Of a stretch of DNA of 26,953 nt, positions 4,805 to 23,624 are shown one piece after another. This stretch comes from a virus, in the IMG/VR virus record IMGVR_UViG_3300017613_001362, positions 1 to 26,953 of that record, one strand, 5' to 3'. Made by a program: the position numbers and the translations under genes. Positions within the stretch are counted from its first letter, which is position 1, and every line of letters starts with the position of its first letter. Below the pieces are notes generated by a model, which was not told the DNA's origin, did no database searches, and was given only the letters and a program-made list of their open reading frames with translations.

Positions 4805-5560
4805 ATGGCAGGAGAGAGTTGGTTTCAGAAAGGCAAGGACGGATGGGAGAGATCGAAGGACGAAGACGCCGCTGCTAAGAAGAGGAGAGAGGAGCAGGGC
4901 ATATGGAGGTTCCGGCTGAAAAGTGATTCCAGCGCAAAGATCACGTTTCTTGACAGTCCGGCCTTCTTTTTTTATGAGCATACGCTTCAGGTGAGAGGGC
5001 GTTGGACTCAAGTCACCTGTATTAAGGAAATGGACACTTGCCCGATTTGCGAGCGCGATGGCAAACCGCCCAGTTACGTAGTCGCGGGAACCATTATAAA
5101 CCATGCGGAGTACAAGACACGCAAGGGCGAGAAGATCAAGAACCAGAAGCAGTTGTTCGTTGCCAAAGGTCGCGCCCGTCAGGGATTGATGCGACAGATC
5201 GAAAGGCGAGACGACGACCTGAAATTCTGTGCCTATGAGATGGCACGTGGCGGTGGCGATACCGAATGCTCGACAGGAGAGGACTATGAGTTCCTGAAGA
5301 GACTCACGGCAAAACAGATCAAGGGCTTTGTACCGAAGGATGAAGATGCCAAGAAGTGGCTGGCCCCGTTCGACTATTCGAAGCTGTTTGAGCCACAGTC
5401 GGCAGAGGAGCTGGCACGGATGATCGGAGCTGCAACTCCAGTAGGCGGAGCTGACGACTCTTATGAACCGCCAGACGATGATGATGGTAAGGCGGATGAA
5501 GGCGATGATGCTGGAGCCGATGAAGAAGAAGGTGCGACCAGCATTGATGATTTGCTTTAA
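4805..5560 (+). CDS. single-stranded DNA-binding protein
   Basis: 251 aa. ATG 4805 is chosen because of AAGGAG at 4793-4798; an upstream TTG in frame lies inside the promoter. The N-terminus is basic with aromatic residues and the central part is beta-rich (ITFLDSPAFFFYEHTLQV), with cysteines C72, C79 and C82 (CPIC) that may hold zinc, as in gp32-type proteins. The last 40 residues are almost all acidic and end in TSIDDLL, the kind of tail by which SSB proteins recruit partners. It protects single strands and organises replication and recombination. Its own promoter allows high expression. Family assignment is by overall architecture. Confidence 0.8.
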   Translation: MAGESWFQKGKDGWERSKDEDAAAKKRREEQGIWRFRLKSDSSAKITFLDSPAFFFYEHTLQVRGRWTQVTCIKEMDTCPICERDGKPPSYVVAGTIINHAEYKTRKGEKIKNQKQLFVAKGRARQGLMRQIERRDDDLKFCAYEMARGGGDTECSTGEDYEFLKRLTAKQIKGFVPKDEDAKKWLAPFDYSKLFEPQSAEELARMIGAATPVGGADDSYEPPDDDDGKADEGDDAGADEEEGATSIDDLL

Positions 5561-5569
5561 GGAGATCGC

Positions 5570-6937
5570 ATGTACAGCAAGGCGATATTGAGCACCCATT
5601 GTTTCGTGCCTATAAAAGAGATCACCTTGGAAGGGATGCGTAGCCTTCTCACCATTAAGAGTAAGTACAGCGAAGACACCGAGGTGAAGCTGTACCAGGA
5701 GGAAGGCGACTGGTTTGGACTGCCGATGTATCACCGGAGAGGACTCAGGTTTGAAGTCTTAAGGGTAGATGATTAGCGGACAGTTGGAGAGCCTGTTAAG
5801 TTCAGATTCAAGTCTGGATACAGGGTAGGCCAGGAAGAGATCATTACGCAATTCGCAGACAGGTTAGAGTACGGATACACCGGAGTGATTTTCGAGGCCC
5901 CGCCAGGATTTGGAAAGACAGTGGTTTTGATCAAGATGATAGAGATGCTTGGCAGAACTACACTGGTGGTGGTCCCGAGATCGAATCTGGTGAAGCAGTG
6001 GGTGGAGCGACTCAAGGAGCATTCCAGCTTAACGGATGCTGATATTGGTGTCGCTCTTGACGGCAAGTGTAAGTGGAAGGGCAAGAAGATAGTTGTTGGG
6101 CTTGTTCATACGCTGACGCTTGACCGTTTTGGAAATGGCTTTCGGGATCATTTTGGTACGGTGGTCTTTGATGAAGTAGACAGAAGCGTGCCTCCGGCAA
6201 CGTTTTCGACGGCAGTCACAATGTTTCCGTCGAAGTACAGGATCGGAGCAAGCGCTACGCTCAAGCGTACAGATGGAATGGATGTGGTGTTTGAAAAGCA
6301 CATTGGCGAGACAAGGATTACTGCGGAAGATGCAAACCGTATGTCGCCGACTGTGATACTCCATTCATTTGACGATAACATGGGCGACGTCTGGGAAGGC
6401 AGCCCGACGCTGAACCGACGTGGGATGCTTCTGTCCATGCTGTCAAAGGACCCGAAACGGAATATGCTGATAGCCTATTACATTGGCTTGATACACAAGT
6501 CAGGTAGAAGGTGTGTGGTTTTATCGGATCGAACGTTACAGTTGTACAGATTGAGAGAGCTGGTAGTTGGTTGCAAAGGTATACCGAGAGATGAGACAGG
6601 TTTCTATGTACGGCAGCTTGATACAGGAAACAGAAAGAAGAGATCCATTACAGAAGCAGAACGGAGACGTGTTGCAAGCGATTGCAATGTGATTTTCGCC
6701 ACGTATGGTATGATGGCTTTAGGAACTGATATTCCAGAGTTAAGCGCTTTGATTTATGCGACACCACAGTCGCAGGTAGAACAATCAAAAGGGAGAATTG
6801 AGAGAGTGTGTGATGGCAAGAAACAGCCAGTCGTCGTGGACATAGTGGATACCGCATACCCAGATGCTAAGAGATGGGCGTTTGCAAGGCAGAGACAATA
6901 CAGAGCAGAGAACTTGAAGATCAAACGCTACAAGTGA
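5570..6937 (+). CDS. superfamily 2 DNA helicase (UvsW/A18-like) interrupted by an in-frame TAG
   Basis: 455 codon positions with TAG as codon 69 (5774-5776). ATG 5570 has AAGGAG. The first 68 residues (VKLYQEEGDWFGLPMY) match the N-terminal substrate domain of phage A18/UvsW-like helicases; after the TAG, in the same frame, come FKSGYRVGQEEII (Q-like motif), Walker A APPGFGKT (110-117), Walker B DEVD (201-204), SAT motif (228-230) and a C-terminal helicase domain ending in QSKGRIERV. No ATG, GTG or TTG lies between the TAG and GTG 5885, which has no ribosome site and would remove the Q-like motif. So one protein is expected, needing TAG to be read as an amino acid. The alternative is a nonsense mutation or a sequencing error. 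Confidence 0.85.
5774..5776 (+). other. in-frame TAG inside the helicase gene
   Basis: Context GAT GAT TAG CGG ACA. Both sides are in one frame and belong to one known protein architecture. See the helicase entry and findings. Confidence 0.75.
6673..6686 (+). repeat. dispersed 14-bp palindrome, copy 5
   Basis: TGCAAGCGATTGCA inside the helicase gene, read as part of Val-Ala-Ser-Asp-Cys-Asn, the third codon phase used by this motif. Confidence 0.85.
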
Positions 6938-7387: not shown

Positions 7388-7706
7388 GATAAGTGAGAAA
7401 GAGGGAATGGTAGAGGTGACGAAGACCACTATGAAGGCTGGAGAGAAGCTTGGTGGTAAGGAGAAAAAAGCAAAGATTAAGATACGTCCGTTCGTGACAG
7501 AAACGGCAAATGTTTCCGTTAAGTATGGCTACACGCTCCCGATGGGAGATTATGCCAGCGCTCGGATGGACGTGATGATCTCAATGCCCTGTTACGTTGA
7601 AGAGGTTCCAGATATGTATGACAAGCTCAGGAAGATGGTAGATGATCTTGTTTCAAGCGAAATGGACAAAGTGACAGGAGGCGCTGATGGCAAAAAGAAA
7701 GGATGA
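7377..7706 (+). CDS. conserved-looking small protein next to the recombinase, 109 aa
   Basis: Overlaps the MerR-like gene by 11 bp and the recombinase gene by 20 bp, so the three are translated as one unit. The first 35 residues are lysine-rich; the middle (ANVSVKYGYTLPMGDYASARMDVMISMPCYVEE) looks like a compact beta fold that I associate with small proteins found beside RecA-like genes in other phages; the end is helical and lysine-rich. Function is unknown. A role in recombination or as a partner of the recombinase is suggested only by position. Confidence 0.75.
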   Translation: MPRKISEKEGMVEVTKTTMKAGEKLGGKEKKAKIKIRPFVTETANVSVKYGYTLPMGDYASARMDVMISMPCYVEEVPDMYDKLRKMVDDLVSSEMDKVTGGADGKKKG

Positions 7707-8814
7707 GACGTTCACGCTGAATGGTGTGATGGAGAACCAGAACAAAGCGTGTGGCGAAGGCACAGTAGGTCTTGGCTCAAGACTCAAGCGCGACCCACCA
7801 AGGCTGCCGACTGGAGTTTTCGCCGTGGATTATGCCACAGGTGGCGGCCTGCCGATTTATGGCTCCACCTGCTTTTGGGGAAAGGAATCAGGCGGAAAGA
7901 CGTCACTGGCATTGAACACAGTCTCGATGGCCCAGAAGATTTGCTGGAGTTGCTTCAGGATACTGGAATTTTGCGAATGTTCGACCCCAGCGGTTTCGAT
8001 GAAAGTTTATTGGGCAGATGTCGAAGGAACACTTGACAGGGACTGGGCAGAAATGTTAGGCGTGAGTTCCGAAGAATATTACGTTGGATTAGCGGACTAC
8101 GGAGAGCAACATGTCAACATAGCAGACGCAGCGTTGAAGGCGGACGACTGCGGTCTGGTTGTCGTAGATTCGCTGGCAGCGATGGTTCCCGAAGTTGAGA
8201 TGGACGCAGCGTCAGAGCAGCAGTTCATTGGCAAACAACCAGCAATGATAGGGCGCATGGTAAGAAAGCTCAAACAGCGGTTGATCAGAGAACGAAAGAA
8301 TGGGCATCCCTGCACTCTCTTATTCACAAATCAGTTGCGAATTAAGATAGGGCAGATGTTCGGAGATCCAGAATCAATGCCTGGAGGCAAGGGCATGATG
8401 CATGAATTCTCACTTCTGTTGCGCTGCGTTCAGAAGGCGTTAGCCCGAGATGGAGCTGACAAGAAGTTTGCAGACGACAGAAAGAAGAAGAAGGATTTTG
8501 GTCAACGTCATTCAATTTCGGTAAAGAAGGCGAAGGTGTTGACTTTGGCAGGGGTAGGCGAATTTGTGAGATGTACGCATGATTTGCCAGATTACGGACT
8601 ACGTGCCGGACAAGTCGATGATTACAATGTCGCGTTGAATTACGCAAAAGAGTATGGGATTGTGAGGAAAGATGGGAAGGGATGGCGGTATTTCGACTAT
8701 AAGGCGCGGACGCTTGAGGACATCAAGAGTGTCTGGGCGAAGAGTCCTAACCAGCACTTGCGAACTAAGCAAGAGATTATCGAACGTGCTAAAGAGAGGC
8801 TTAGAGGAGATTAG
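7687..8814 (+). CDS. RecA/UvsX-like recombinase
   Basis: 375 aa. Catalyses ATP-dependent strand pairing and exchange. Walker A is GKESGGKT (65-72), Walker B is in LVVVDSLAAMVP, followed by the loop and helix with QPAMIGRMVRKLKQRL, and the LLFTNQLR strand with the Q/N residue that senses ATP in RecA proteins; GGKG marks the DNA-binding loop 2 region. A cysteine cluster, C86, C89, C96 and C98, interrupts the fold after the Walker A helix and may bind a metal. ATG 7687 lies after GACAGGAGG. It ends in TAG at 8812-8814, here probably a true stop because the next gene starts at 8816 with its own ribosome site. Confidence 0.9.
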   Translation: MAKRKDETFTLNGVMENQNKACGEGTVGLGSRLKRDPPRLPTGVFAVDYATGGGLPIYGSTCFWGKESGGKTSLALNTVSMAQKICWSCFRILEFCECSTPAVSMKVYWADVEGTLDRDWAEMLGVSSEEYYVGLADYGEQHVNIADAALKADDCGLVVVDSLAAMVPEVEMDAASEQQFIGKQPAMIGRMVRKLKQRLIRERKNGHPCTLLFTNQLRIKIGQMFGDPESMPGGKGMMHEFSLLLRCVQKALARDGADKKFADDRKKKKDFGQRHSISVKKAKVLTLAGVGEFVRCTHDLPDYGLRAGQVDDYNVALNYAKEYGIVRKDGKGWRYFDYKARTLEDIKSVWAKSPNQHLRTKQEIIERAKERLRGD

Positions 8815-10208: not shown

Positions 10209-10771
10209 TGTCGGTAATTGGGTTAGATCTGAGTCTAAGTGGAACTGGTGTATGCGTTCAGCCGCTTAATGGCGGGAAGGCATCGACTTGCAATATTGGC
10301 ACAAAGCCAAAGGATGGGACACGGCTGGCCCGATGCGCCACCATTGCCAAGGAGCTGGCTGACATTGCAAGGCAAGGGGATTTCGTTTTCATAGAGGACT
10401 ATGCTTGGGGAGCCAAGGGCAGCCTTGTAACGCTTGCCGAACTTGGAGGCATAGTCAAGTTGATGATGTGGAGGCGTACAGGGCATCAGCCGTTTCCGGT
10501 ATCGCAAACGCTTTTGAAGAAATGGTTTTGTGGAGGCAGCACCTGCAAGAAAGAGATGATTCCAGTGAACGTGAACAAGAAGTATGATAGGCACTTCAAG
10601 ACCCATGATGAGTATGTGGCTTACGCCGTTGCTGATCTTGGTCTCCATTTATTGAAGAAGGGCAGCAGAGAATTGTTTGAGTATGAATCCAAGATTATTA
10701 AGAGCCTGATTGAGAAAGACAAGGAGAAGATACTGATGCCGTTGCAAGCGCTTGCAGAAATATTGACTTAG
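10208..10771 (+). CDS. RuvC-like Holliday junction resolvase
   Basis: 187 aa; ATG 10208 shares its A with the preceding TAA and follows GGAGG. The RNase H-like fold of RuvC is visible: D7 in IGLDLSLSGTG, E63 in FIEDYAWG, and D134 and D143 in the HDEYVAYAVADLG helix. It resolves four-way junctions with two metal ions. This is the second resolvase-type enzyme within 2 kb. The gene ends in TAG (10769-10771) just after palindrome copy 7, and a strong promoter begins 24 bp later, so this TAG is probably a true stop; reading through would add 20 residues. Confidence 0.82.
   Translation: MSVIGLDLSLSGTGVCVQPLNGGKASTCNIGTKPKDGTRLARCATIAKELADIARQGDFVFIEDYAWGAKGSLVTLAELGGIVKLMMWRRTGHQPFPVSQTLLKKWFCGGSTCKKEMIPVNVNKKYDRHFKTHDEYVAYAVADLGLHLLKKGSRELFEYESKIIKSLIEKDKEKILMPLQALAEILT
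10743..10756 (+). repeat. dispersed 14-bp palindrome, copy 7
   Basis: TGCAAGCGCTTGCA, a perfect palindrome near the end of the RuvC-like gene (Leu-Gln-Ala-Leu-Ala), 38 bp before the -35 box at 10795. Confidence 0.85.
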
Positions 10772-10913: not shown

Positions 10914-12476
10914 ATGGCAGAACCCACGATTAAGGATTACATTCGTGCGGGCTATCCGTGTTTGTTCATGCGGACGGTTGAGCCAGAAGTTGCCGAACGT
11001 GCATTGAGAGAAGCACTGGAGGAGCTGGGCATGGGCCAGATTGATTTTGGCGTGTGGAAAGCGACTACAGGCTTGCAGGTAGGCAAGGCTGACACGTCAA
11101 TGACAAGCGTGACGGAGAGAGCACAGGATTTGCTGGATGCCTTAGCTGTTGTCGAGACTTCGGAACAGCCGATGGTGGTAGTTTTCCATAATGTTAGGCA
11201 GTTTGTGGCGAACTATCAGATCATTCAGCAGATGCTCGACACCGCAGCCGCTTCACGGCTGAAAGGATCGCATATCGTTTTGGTTGGACCGCACATTGAT
11301 CTGCCCGTAGAGATGAAGACGGTTGTCACCTTCATTGACTGCCCCCTACCCACCCAGAAAGAAATCAGAGAAGAATACAGGAAGATTGTCACGGCCTATG
11401 AAGACGAGATCGAACTTCCATCTAAGGGAGACGAACTTGAAGGACTTCTGAAAGACGCAGCGACTGCCGCTGTTGGCCTTGACATGATGGGAGCCGAGAA
11501 TGCGATTGCATTGTCACTGGCTACCAGCGAGAAGGTAGATCTTCACGTGATCCAGTCGCAGAAGGAGCAGGAGGTCAGGAAGTCAGATGTTCTGGAATTC
11601 TTCCCGACTGCGGAATCTCTGAACACGGTAGGTGGTATGTCGGAATTGAAGCTTTGGCTGCACAAGCGCCGAAGGGTCTTCACAGAAGAGGCCAGAGAGT
11701 ATGGACTTCCGTATCCTAAAGGGATGTTGATTGTAGGCCCCGCCGGAACCGGAAAAAGCTTGACGGCGAAGGCGGTTTCAACGTTTTTGAAGCTGCCGCT
11801 TCTCAGACTTGATATGGGCAAGGTCTTCCGGTCATTGGTTGGGGAATCCGAATCAGCGATCAGGCAAGCATTGAAGGTGACTGAAGCTGTTTCGCCAGTT
11901 GTACTTTGGCTGGACGAAATAGACAAGGGACTGGCTGGTATGAAAGGATCAGGCGAACTCGACTCTGGCGTGACCGCAAGGGTAGTGTCAACCATTCTTA
12001 CGTGGCGACAAGAGACCACGTATCCGGTCATGCTGGTGGCTACGGCCAATGAAGTTGTCACCCTGCCAGCGATGATTTACAGAAAAGGAAGATTGGATGA
12101 AGTATGGGCGACCGACCTACCGCATGAGGATGAAAGAGAAGAAATTTTCAGAATCCACATAGAGAAGAGAGGAAGGGAAGTCAAGAAGTTCAATCTCAGT
12201 CTGCTGGCACAGACGTCGCCTGATTTCACAGGATCAGAAATTGAGGGCTGTATAGAAGACGCGATGTTCTCTGCTTTTGATGACAACAAAGAGGTAAGCT
12301 CAACGTATATCATGAAGGCGTTGAAAGAGACGATTCCGCAAGCGACAAGGGACAGAGAAGAGTTGACGTCTATTCGTGAGTGGGTTAAAACAAGGGCACG
12401 CCTTGCATCTGGCCCCGCCAAGGAAGGAAAGAAGGCTAAGGGTTCGAAGGTAAGGCAGATCAGGAAAAACACTTAA
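10914..12476 (+). CDS. Ycf46-like AAA+ ATPase
   Basis: 520 aa. The N-terminal domain (1-230, starting DYIRAGYPCLFMRTVEPEVAE) and the AAA core match the Ycf46 layout: LWLHKRRRVFTEEAREYGLP, Walker A GPAGTGKS (275-282), LLRLDMGKVFRSLVGESE, Walker B VLWLDEID (D334, E335), and the second region of homology with MIYRKGRLDEVWATDLP. Ycf46 proteins are conserved in cyanobacteria, plastids and some bacteria. Here it could remodel a DNA-protein complex; the target is unknown. The gene has its own strong promoter at 10795 and is followed by a DNA-associated acidic-tail protein, so it may start a separate operon. Last residues are basic (KKAKGSKVRQIRKNT). Confidence 0.87.
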   Translation: MAEPTIKDYIRAGYPCLFMRTVEPEVAERALREALEELGMGQIDFGVWKATTGLQVGKADTSMTSVTERAQDLLDALAVVETSEQPMVVVFHNVRQFVANYQIIQQMLDTAAASRLKGSHIVLVGPHIDLPVEMKTVVTFIDCPLPTQKEIREEYRKIVTAYEDEIELPSKGDELEGLLKDAATAAVGLDMMGAENAIALSLATSEKVDLHVIQSQKEQEVRKSDVLEFFPTAESLNTVGGMSELKLWLHKRRRVFTEEAREYGLPYPKGMLIVGPAGTGKSLTAKAVSTFLKLPLLRLDMGKVFRSLVGESESAIRQALKVTEAVSPVVLWLDEIDKGLAGMKGSGELDSGVTARVVSTILTWRQETTYPVMLVATANEVVTLPAMIYRKGRLDEVWATDLPHEDEREEIFRIHIEKRGREVKKFNLSLLAQTSPDFTGSEIEGCIEDAMFSAFDDNKEVSSTYIMKALKETIPQATRDREELTSIREWVKTRARLASGPAKEGKKAKGSKVRQIRKNT

Positions 12477-12491: not shown

Positions 12492-13358
12492 ATGGCAAAA
12501 CAGAAGAGCAAGACCAAGTCTTCCAAATCAGGAAGCGCAACAGGGGCGGCAGCGAAGTCGAAGATCAAGCAAGTACGTCATGAAGTAGTGCATGAAGAGA
12601 TTGCGGTGGCGGAACGTGCGATTGAGGAAAATTACGTGGAACTGGCGAAGCTGCTGTATGAGGCATATCACCAAGATCATTATGTGAAATGGGGATACGA
12701 TGATTTCAAAGACTACTGCGATGCAGAACTTTCGACGAACTACCGGAAGGCGATGTACCTGATAGACATCTGGGACAAGATCAAAAGGTTGAAGTTGTCT
12801 CCGGCAAGAGTCGCCAAAATCGGTTGGACGAAGATGAAGGACATTGCCTCAGTCATTGATGAGAAGAACGCAAAAGAGTGGCTGGACAAGGCTGGGAAGA
12901 TGTCAACAAGGGAAGTGACCGATGCCGTTAAGACCGTAAGGAAGGACAGCAGCGGCAGCCCCGAAGTTCCGACAACTACCACCTTAAAGATTGTCATGGG
13001 CGAGACCGAGGCCGCCGTTGTGCTGGAAGCGATTGAGGAAGCCAAGGCATTGACGGAGTCTGACAGCACGGCACTGGCACTGGAGATGATCGCCAGCGAC
13101 TGGATGGAAGAAAAAGGTGGACTGCCCACAAAGACCCCGATTGAGAGTCACGTAGCCTATCTCGAAAAGGCGTACGGAGTCAAGATCACAGTCAAAAAGG
13201 GAAAGAAGAAGTCCAAGGCCAAGGCGGACGCCGACAAAGTTGAGAAGGCAGCAGAGAAGAAAGCGGCTGACCGCAAGGCTGACGATAAGGACATTGAGCC
13301 TACCGATGATACAACGGATGAAGGCGAAGCCGACATCAATGATCTTTTAGGGTTGTAG
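12492..13358 (+). CDS. lysine-rich helical protein with acidic DLL tail, 288 aa
   Basis: ATG 12492 with AAAGGAGG before it. Residues 1-35 are a Lys/Ser/Ala-rich flexible arm. Residues 36-150 are helical (AERAIEENYVELAKLLYEAYHQ; WGYDDFKDYCDAELSTNYRKAMYLIDIW), resembling small phage and plasmid proteins that bind DNA with a helix-turn-helix. Residues 240-275 are Lys/Ala/Asp-rich and the end, DEGEADINDLLGL, resembles the SSB tail. The stop is TAG (13356-13358); reading it through adds one residue and reaches TGA at 13362, giving an ATGA overlap with the next gene. Function unknown; likely works with the neighbouring ATPase or DNA. Confidence 0.75.
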   Translation: MAKQKSKTKSSKSGSATGAAAKSKIKQVRHEVVHEEIAVAERAIEENYVELAKLLYEAYHQDHYVKWGYDDFKDYCDAELSTNYRKAMYLIDIWDKIKRLKLSPARVAKIGWTKMKDIASVIDEKNAKEWLDKAGKMSTREVTDAVKTVRKDSSGSPEVPTTTTLKIVMGETEAAVVLEAIEEAKALTESDSTALALEMIASDWMEEKGGLPTKTPIESHVAYLEKAYGVKITVKKGKKKSKAKADADKVEKAAEKKAADRKADDKDIEPTDDTTDEGEADINDLLGL

Positions 13359-13869: not shown

Positions 13870-14061
13870 ATGGCTAAGAAACCGACCACGAAAGCACCGA
13901 AGAAATTGACGAAGCTGGAGATGAAGGGCGAACTGAAGAAAGTGAAGAGACGGGTAGTGGTAGTGAAGGGTATGCTCACCAAAGGCAATACAGAATCTGC
14001 ACAGCGAGCGTTGCATAGATTGGCACTGCTGATGAATGATCTGATAGACAGAGCGGTGTAG
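13870..14061 (+). CDS. very basic small protein, 63 aa
   Basis: ATG 13870 is chosen over ATG 13852 because AAGGAG lies at 13858-13863. Residues 1-30 are Lys/Thr/Pro-rich, then a hydrophobic and basic helical part (VKRRVVVVKGMLTKGNTESAQRALHRLALLMNDLIDRAV). It may be a nucleic-acid-binding or scaffolding protein. It ends in TAG (14059-14061). The next gene is in the same frame with no TAA or TGA between, but a palindrome copy and a promoter lie in the gap, so the TAG is probably a true stop here. Family not recognised. Confidence 0.65.
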   Translation: MAKKPTTKAPKKLTKLEMKGELKKVKRRVVVVKGMLTKGNTESAQRALHRLALLMNDLIDRAV

Positions 14062-20885: not shown

Positions 20886-21631
20886 GCAGTGGTCAAAGAC
20901 AACTGACTGAGGAGGTTCAGCTAACCGGACAGTCAATCATAAACAAGCTGAGGGAAGCTGCCGCTCCGCCTGGAAAGAAAGGCTCCTGGCTAAAGCTGTT
21001 GAGCGATAAGCAACTCGCAGAAGTTTTCCACAGATTGAAGCTGGGGCAGACCTCCCTGTATATTGCGAAGATGGCACAGAGAGAGTGGAATGTTAAACCG
21101 TCTTCACAGCCAAAGTCGCTTGCAAGATCGGTAAGATCTTTTCGTGACAAGATAGTTGGAGAGTTAAGAAAGACTGATGCCAAGAAAGAAGGGCAGAAGG
21201 AAGTCCTTCAAGATATGATGAAACGTGGCAAGCGGATTGTTGACAAGCTGGATGGCCTTGGTAGGTTACGCTGGCTGATAGAGGAGCAGACTGATAGAAT
21301 TCAGGTGCTCCGTGAAAGAGAGAAGTCGTCCATTCCGTTTGAGATAACAGAGAAGGCAGTCCGCAATGCGAAGGAGCTGCTGGAAGTTTACCTGAAATTC
21401 CAGATAGAGCTTGGACTACTGGACAGCAAGCCGAGTGAGCACAATATAGAAATCATGCACAGGTTCGATGGTTTGATGGCGAACACGTTCACAGATGATG
21501 GTGCAAGGCTGATCAATGCTGGAACGAAGTTTCTGGAATTGGCAGAGAAGAGATCCTTGACCCTTGAGAGAAAACCGGACGGCTCGTTTGCGTTGGAAGG
21601 AGGAATAGATGAAAGTGATTCCGCTGAATGA
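20882..21631 (+). CDS. helical protein before the large terminase; candidate small terminase
   Basis: 249 aa, ATGA overlap with the ParB-like gene. The first 85 residues look like a helix-turn-helix domain (LLSDKQLAEVFHRLKLGQTSLYIAKMAQREW), followed by a long amphipathic helical region (125-190), probably a coiled coil for oligomerisation, and a Ser/Asp end. DNA-binding N-terminus plus oligomerisation region directly before the large terminase is the usual layout of a small terminase (TerS), but sequence similarity is not clear enough to be sure. It overlaps the terminase gene by 23 bp. Confidence 0.6.
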   Translation: MSSGQRQLTEEVQLTGQSIINKLREAAAPPGKKGSWLKLLSDKQLAEVFHRLKLGQTSLYIAKMAQREWNVKPSSQPKSLARSVRSFRDKIVGELRKTDAKKEGQKEVLQDMMKRGKRIVDKLDGLGRLRWLIEEQTDRIQVLREREKSSIPFEITEKAVRNAKELLEVYLKFQIELGLLDSKPSEHNIEIMHRFDGLMANTFTDDGARLINAGTKFLELAEKRSLTLERKPDGSFALEGGIDESDSAE

Positions 21632-23624
21632 TGCGGTCGAACTTACCATCGAGGCCGCTCAGGGTTTAGGCATGTCGCCGGACTATGAGGAAGCATGGCG
21701 TCTCTTGATATCATCAGTCCAGCCGATTATCGTAGACGACAAGGAGTTCTATAGAACGGCAGACTTGCAAGGAGTGATCAAGAATATGCTAAGGGCCTGC
21801 CAGTCCAAGGACTCGTCGTACATTGTCCAGAAGAGAGGATTGCGTGTTGACAGGGTAGTAGACATTCAGGAATTTTGCGAGAGCGCAGAGTTCATGAACC
21901 AGAAGGGATAGGTCAGACCGAAGATCATGTATGAGCTGCAAAGATTGTTCAAGAGTGAAAACTATATCGAAGCCGTATTGACAGGAGCGATAGGTATAGG
22001 AAAGAACTATTTTGCAGACATGGCGATGGCATACATGCTGTATCACCTGTCCTGTCTCCACTCACCGCAGTTGGAATACGATCTTGCCCCAGGATCATCT
22101 ATCATTTTCATTCAGCAGTCCATGACCGCTACGCTGGCTAAGAAGGTTGTGTTTGAGCAGTTTGCTGAAAGACTGAGACTCAGTCCGTGGTTCAAGGAGC
22201 ACTTCCCGTTTGATCCGAATTTGAAGTCGGAGCTAAGATTCCCCAAGAATATTTACGTCCTCCCAGTAGGTGGCGCAGACACAAGCGCAATCGGCATGAA
22301 CGTTTATGGAGGAGTCATTGATGAGCTGAACTTCATGGCAAGGGTCAAGGGAAGCGTGCACACAAAGTATCAGAAAGATGATGAGTACGATCAAGCGGAG
22401 AGAGTCTACTCAGCTTTGATTCGAAGGATGAAATCTCGTTTCATGCAGAAAGGCAAGATTCCTGGTAAGCTGTTGCTGGTATCGTCTGTCAACTATCCAG
22501 GCGACTTCACAGACAGAAAGGTGAGTGAGGCCAAAGTAGATGAAACGATTTTTGTCATGAACTACAGCCAATGGGAAGTGCTTCCGGCTGATAGATTTTC
22601 AGGCCAGACGTTTCTTGTAGAGATTGGAAACGAAGTGAAGCAGTCAAGAATCCTGAGAGATATGAGCGAAGCCCTTGATGAGGAAGATGTGATCAAGGTG
22701 CCTACAGAATACAAGCCAGAGTTTGAGCGTGATCTTGAAGCTGCGCTGAGAGACCTTGGAGGTGTGGCGACTGGCACGAGGCATCCGTTCATCCCGTACC
22801 GTGAGCTGATTATTCAGGCACAAGAGACACACGCCTTGCAGTACGAAAACAGGCAGCTTTTCTTGAGAGAGGAGGTTGTCATTGATGAGGTGGTGGATGA
22901 GGAAGTGCAAGACTGGGAGAACTTGATTAATGTGGATTATCTGTCAGAGCATGTGATTGATCCGAATATGGCATTTGCGATGCATATAGATGTTGGTATC
23001 ACAGGAGATGCAGCAGGTGTAGCGGTTGGCAGAATTACAGGCTACAAGCTTTTGCCGACAACAAAGTATTTCAATGAGCGCCTAAAGGACTTTGTGGAAG
23101 TCACAGACATCAGGGTTCCCATCTATACGATTGACGGAGCGTTGAGGGTAACAGCGCCCCCTAACGGCGAAGTGGATCTGGAGATGCTGAGAGATATGGC
23201 ATTGTGGCTTAGAGGGAAGATCAACCTGAAATGGGGAACGATGGATTCGTACCAGTCGACTATGTTGATCCAGTCGTTCAGGAAGTCAAGGATCAGGTCA
23301 GGAGTACTGTCAGTTGATACGTCACTGGCACCGTATTCAGAGGTGAAGCTGGCAATCAAAGATGAGCGCCTGCTGATTCCACCGCATTTGCATTTGGCAA
23401 AGGAATTGCGCGAGCTGGAAAAAGATGAGAAGAAAGTGGACCACCCGCCGGGAGGATCAAAGGATGTTTCGGATGCAGTGGCTGGTGTGGTGTACATGCT
23501 GCAAAAGAAGGAAGCGTCTTATGGCACAGCGACTGGCGCGAGAAGACGAAGTGGATCAGGAGCAAGGGTGAAGAGAAAGCTCAACGATCCTGGCGTCAGA
23601 AAAATCAGAACGAGAACAAGATAA
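21609..23624 (+). CDS. large terminase (TerL) interrupted by an in-frame TAG
   Basis: 671 codon positions with TAG as codon 101 (21909-21911). ATG 21609 has GGAGGA. The part before the TAG ends VVDIQEFCESAEFMNQKG, and after it VRPKIMYELQRLF then YIEAVLTGAIGIGKN (Walker A-like, 126-133) and MLYHLSCL; this continuous run is the usual N-terminal region of one group of phage terminases. Walker B is GVIDE (D238, E239). The nuclease half follows with HIDVGITGDAAGV, GTMDSYQS and KDVSDAVAGVVYML. ATG 21927 after the TAG has no ribosome site. So the TAG appears to be read. Walker A ends in Asn in place of Ser/Thr. The protein packages DNA into capsids. Confidence 0.86.
21909..21911 (+). other. in-frame TAG inside the large terminase gene
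   Basis: Context AAG GGA TAG GTC AGA. The frame is open on both sides and both sides belong to one terminase architecture. Confidence 0.75.

Follow-up and report, generated by a model that had tools for sequence, protein, structure and literature searches.

The DNA under study, a stretch of 26,953 nucleotides hereafter called the window, contains a large terminase (TerL) gene and a helicase gene that are each interrupted by a single in-frame TAG codon (Table 1). The TerL frame holds no other internal stop and terminates with TAA, in agreement with the initial annotation, which had described this gene as split by the TAG at 21909. The flanking sequences also read as written there, with the N-terminal piece before the TAG ending QEFCESAEFMNQKG and the piece after it starting VRPKIMYELQRLF. 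A spacing of four bases separates the GGAGGA element from the ATG at 21609, which confirms the site claimed for this start, and the ATG at 21927 was likewise confirmed to have no good ribosome site.

Table 1. Coordinates of the TAG-bearing genes and associated features in the window
Feature	Position	Strand	Evidence
SF2 (ResIII/DEAD type) helicase frame with one internal TAG	5570-6937	+	
In-frame TAG of helicase; K, E, R, T, L, H or N in relatives	5774-5776	+	
TAG as true stop of UvsX-like recombinase gene 7687-8814	8812-8814	+	Stop position shared by homologs
TAG as terminal stop of gene 12492-13358	13356-13358	+	
GGAGGA ribosome-binding site serving ATG 21609	21599-21604	+	Sequence
TerL frame, 671 codons, with one internal TAG	21609-23624	+	phrog_2; model matches to HK97 TerL and T4 gp17
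In-frame TAG of TerL; Y, H, S, F, A or I in relatives	21909-21911	+	
Candidate restart ATG, 15 nt 3' of the TAG, lacking a good ribosome site	21927-21929	+	
Walker A segment GAIGIGKN of TerL	21984-22007	+	Invariant in alignment

The part of TerL that follows the TAG matched the TerL family phrog_2 (PHROG) and, by tblastn, 276 phage records with matches annotated as terminase, the best identity being approximately 39%, to Vibrio phages. The protein shows an ATPase with Walker A and B followed by a nuclease domain and resembles known TerL proteins; the Terminase_6N Pfam model gave no match within the window, and a sequence-profile search of the PDB gave none. The read-through protein was modeled with AlphaFold2 (mean pLDDT of 76), and the model matched the HK97 TerL, T4 gp17, and G20c nuclease structures and other terminases; its low pTM of 0.48 makes the domain arrangement unreliable. 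The TAG position corresponds to TerL residue 101, which the model places in a loop between two helices, directly before the helix leading to Walker A. The Walker A segment carries an asparagine at the place usually taken by serine or threonine and does not vary among the five aligned relatives.

Relatives were identified by scanning viral contigs with TerL, helicase, and AAA ATPase queries, and they represent a phage family with similar gene order. Both sides of the TerL TAG aligned to one unbroken gene, with 46 to 66% identity across the TAG and no stop in the subject, and continuous TerL open reading frames in 15 other contigs support TAG 21909 as an interruption. Alignment with TerL proteins, which had been suggested as a check, showed exactly one residue in place of the TAG, mostly tyrosine (TAT/TAC), in an unbroken gene in every relative covering the site. 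The contrary arrangement named in the initial annotation, a small protein followed by a TerL starting at the MYELQ site, was absent; among the relatives covering the site, no separate small gene ends at the TAG and there is one TerL gene. Neither TAG 21909 nor TAG 5774 occurs in any relative. A DNA-pattern scan of viral contigs, a set that may omit the closest records, found no other TerL with a TAG at this position and no near-identical copy of the window.

Another gene of the window had been said to be split likewise, and this proved to be the helicase. It is unbroken in thirteen relatives, with one residue opposite TAG 5774, and intact relatives from seven contigs support the TAG as an interruption. 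No ATG, GTG, or TTG occurs for 108 nt after this TAG, so a restarted helicase would lose the conserved R..GQ segment preceding Walker A. A third TAG-split gene, at 14059, was rejected because the start of the relatives' genes falls after that TAG.

Several features of protein architecture were also observed in this family. One relative (L021) carries inteins at Walker A of TerL (HNH type, L021:17554-20514) and of the helicase (LAGLIDADG/Hint type, L021:776-3061), the very genes that are interrupted by TAG in the window; L031 and L032 show similar gaps at the TerL site. A basic tail, (V/I)R(K/Q)IR(F/T)R, ends the AAA ATPase, TerL, and two small downstream proteins of the window (C termini at 12476, 23624, 24417, and 24776) and is shared by the TerL of several relatives. 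An acidic tail with (I/L)(D/E/N)DLL ends an SSB-like protein, the protein encoded at 12492-13358, and a ParB-like protein (C termini at 5560, 13358, and 20885). Relatives also have this tail, which is possibly a common partner-binding tail. The SSB Pfam model had no match within the window.

The frequency of interrupted genes was estimated by comparing the intact open reading frames of 17 contigs against all 17, covering approximately 537 kb of homologous coding sequence. TAG 21909 and TAG 5774 were the only in-frame stops backed by several intact relatives, and all remaining candidates could be assigned to shadow frames or to gene borders. Across a wider set, comprising 89 records with 1.18 Mb covered, one further real stop appeared: in L179, a distant relative, the major capsid protein gene holds a lone TAA (L179:10391), where the neighboring L177 has Gln. 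All other in-frame stops in 80 capsid-bearing loci were rejected as antisense shadow frames of the capsid gene. The background is approximately one event per 1.16 Mb, and our own arithmetic puts the odds of two events within 22 kb at approximately 2 in 10,000, a figure to be read with the varying quality of the contigs and the choice of the window for its oddness in mind. Random single-base nonsense changes in these genes give TAG in 50 to 53% of cases, so the occurrence of two TAGs, with odds of approximately 0.27 by chance, is weak evidence. Column entropy placed the two TAG sites at the 75th and 88th percentiles within their proteins, that is, at variable positions.

Private changes of the window at otherwise invariant columns were mostly conservative and within the range of its near relatives (13 of 570, 2.3%). 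Radical private changes at well-conserved columns were the lowest of all compared (4 of 1028), in window-anchored alignments that bias this count downward. Change counts 3' of both TAGs were normal, and no frameshifts were seen in the conserved genes of the window. These sequence comparisons do not point to a contig that is decayed or rich in errors, and the conservation tests are compatible with a recent mutation or a consensus error rate near 0.2%.

Recoding is unsupported, and this tailed phage in all likelihood uses the standard code. A code-15 genome would carry in-frame TAGs in many genes and at the Gln positions of relatives, whereas the window has two in approximately 8,400 codons and approximately 32 genes; the homologous residues differ between the two sites, and Gln is found at neither. 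Code 15 would also avoid TAG as a terminal stop, whereas at least five of the approximately 32 genes end in TAG, namely the two listed in Table 1 and those with a terminal TAG at 10771, 15111, and 23957. No tRNA gene was found in the window, which is part of a genome most of which is missing (long relatives measure approximately 77 to 100 kb); no CTA-anticodon tRNA was found in 1.9 Mb of relatives, and no suppressor tRNA in the 80 capsid-bearing loci. Programmed readthrough would be marked by a stop conserved in relatives and a stimulating 3' context. Here the stop is present in no relative, and no stimulating RNA structure was detected 3' of the TAGs (fold z-scores of +0.69 and -0.78). The interpretation in the initial annotation was supported in part, for a single TerL gene with one residue opposite the TAG. 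Against a reading of the TAG as sense stand the terminal TAGs, the lack of a suppressor tRNA among these sequences, and the difference between the two sites in homologous residues; the same data would fit a consensus error or a mutant genome. The argument of the initial annotation that a nonsense mutation would be lethal presupposes that the sequenced genome replicates.

Two relatives encode a tRNA-Tyr(GTA) (L018:9949-10035, genome G002, and G009:19066-19152). A single anticodon change would turn such a tRNA into an amber suppressor, and most relatives have tyrosine opposite the TerL TAG; no anticodon-changed copy was seen. A host and prophage search of bacterial and archaeal genome contigs identified no relative of the window.

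As a tentative first choice, we propose that these are sporadic amber codons of a standard-code tailed phage, decoded by suppression or leaky readthrough. TerL and the helicase would each have gained one amber codon at a variable position, and the UAGs would be decoded at a useful rate during infection, giving enough full-length protein. The decoder may be an amber-suppressor tRNA, supplied by the host or encoded by the phage outside the sequenced fragment, or decoding may occur by leaky readthrough. That the codons are decoded at all, and by what, is our inference; it would account for the intact frames, for the placement of both ambers at variable sites, and for the otherwise undamaged genes. 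In both genes the frames flanking the TAG are intact with one residue replaced, TerL residue 101 falls in a predicted loop, the density of events is far above the background, and the helicase offers no restart codon close to its TAG. Against this proposal stand the failure to find a suppressor tRNA in the relatives or in the sequenced part of this genome, the absence of either TAG from relatives, the terminal use of TAG, the lack of a stimulating RNA structure, and the chance that two random stops would both be TAG.

Close behind, and nearly as likely, the TAGs may be fortuitous, being either nonsense mutations of a defective genome that happened to be assembled or errors in the consensus of a contig with thin coverage; nothing would then decode them. 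Both TAGs are private to this contig, TAG is the commonest result of a random nonsense change here, and the relatives' codons lie one base from TAG (TAT/TAC; GAG, AAG, TTG). The lone capsid-gene TAA in the distant relative indicates that such cases exist in this collection, and the window was selected for its oddness. However, two nonsense changes imply approximately 45 random substitutions (4 to 5% being nonsense), yet neither an excess of radical or private changes nor a frameshift in conserved genes was seen, which sets a weak bound, and two events in 22 kb far exceed the background.

It is unlikely that this environmental phage, with its standard code, retains single ambers in the packaging motor and helicase because UAG is decoded by its host, through a natural suppressor or pyrrolysine; the two genes would then work only in such hosts or conditions. 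Also unlikely is termination at the TerL TAG to give a 100-residue N-terminal piece, with restart at ATG 21927 and a TerL made of two polypeptides. This ATG is in frame and close to the TAG, but it lacks a good ribosome site, its product would lack the conserved RPxI residues, and a split TerL is found in no relative. Restart might serve TerL but not the helicase, where no start codon is near and the R..GQ segment would be lost. Use of code 15 (TAG = Gln), as in some gut phages, is highly implausible: a TerL with an in-frame TAG is also present in phAss-1, but 41 open reading frames are broken there against two in-frame TAGs here (PMC10607447), and the terminal TAGs, the absence of Gln at both sites in all relatives, and the failure of both the window and 1.9 Mb of relatives to yield a suppressor tRNA all argue against it.

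Should the TAGs be decoded, the window would represent a natural phage that relies on amber suppression while keeping its code, an intermediate assumed by models of stop-codon reassignment. Otherwise, it warns against taking in-frame stops as recoding, without further signs, when they occur in the core genes of phage contigs from metagenomes.

Homologous TerL proteins occur in Vibrio phages (V-YDF132 and kin) and Stenotrophomonas phage DLP_5, with approximately 35 to 39% identity over 93 to 94% of the post-TAG part, and unlike that of the window they are annotated as one uninterrupted gene. A TAG-broken but otherwise intact TerL frame is shared with the code-15 phages, that is, phAss-1 (PMC10607447) and the crAss-like phages, for which recoding has proteomic proof (PMC9523058). 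In phAss-1, the TerL TAGs lie at Gln positions of relatives and three suppressor tRNAs are present (PMC10607447); the window differs in the number of broken frames and in the Gln positions, and no suppressor tRNA was seen. Code-15 phages have dozens of TAG-containing open reading frames, conserved Gln sites, and CTA tRNA genes, whereas the window has two affected genes, with the TAGs at variable positions where Gln is found in no relative; it also retains TAG as a stop and yielded no CTA tRNA. Laboratory amber mutants of phages grow on suppressor hosts. The window differs from them in being an environmental contig with no known suppressor host, and it resembles them in carrying isolated ambers in core genes that would be functional only where UAG is decoded. 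For such amber mutants, T7 on recoded hosts provides the comparison (PMC8923235).
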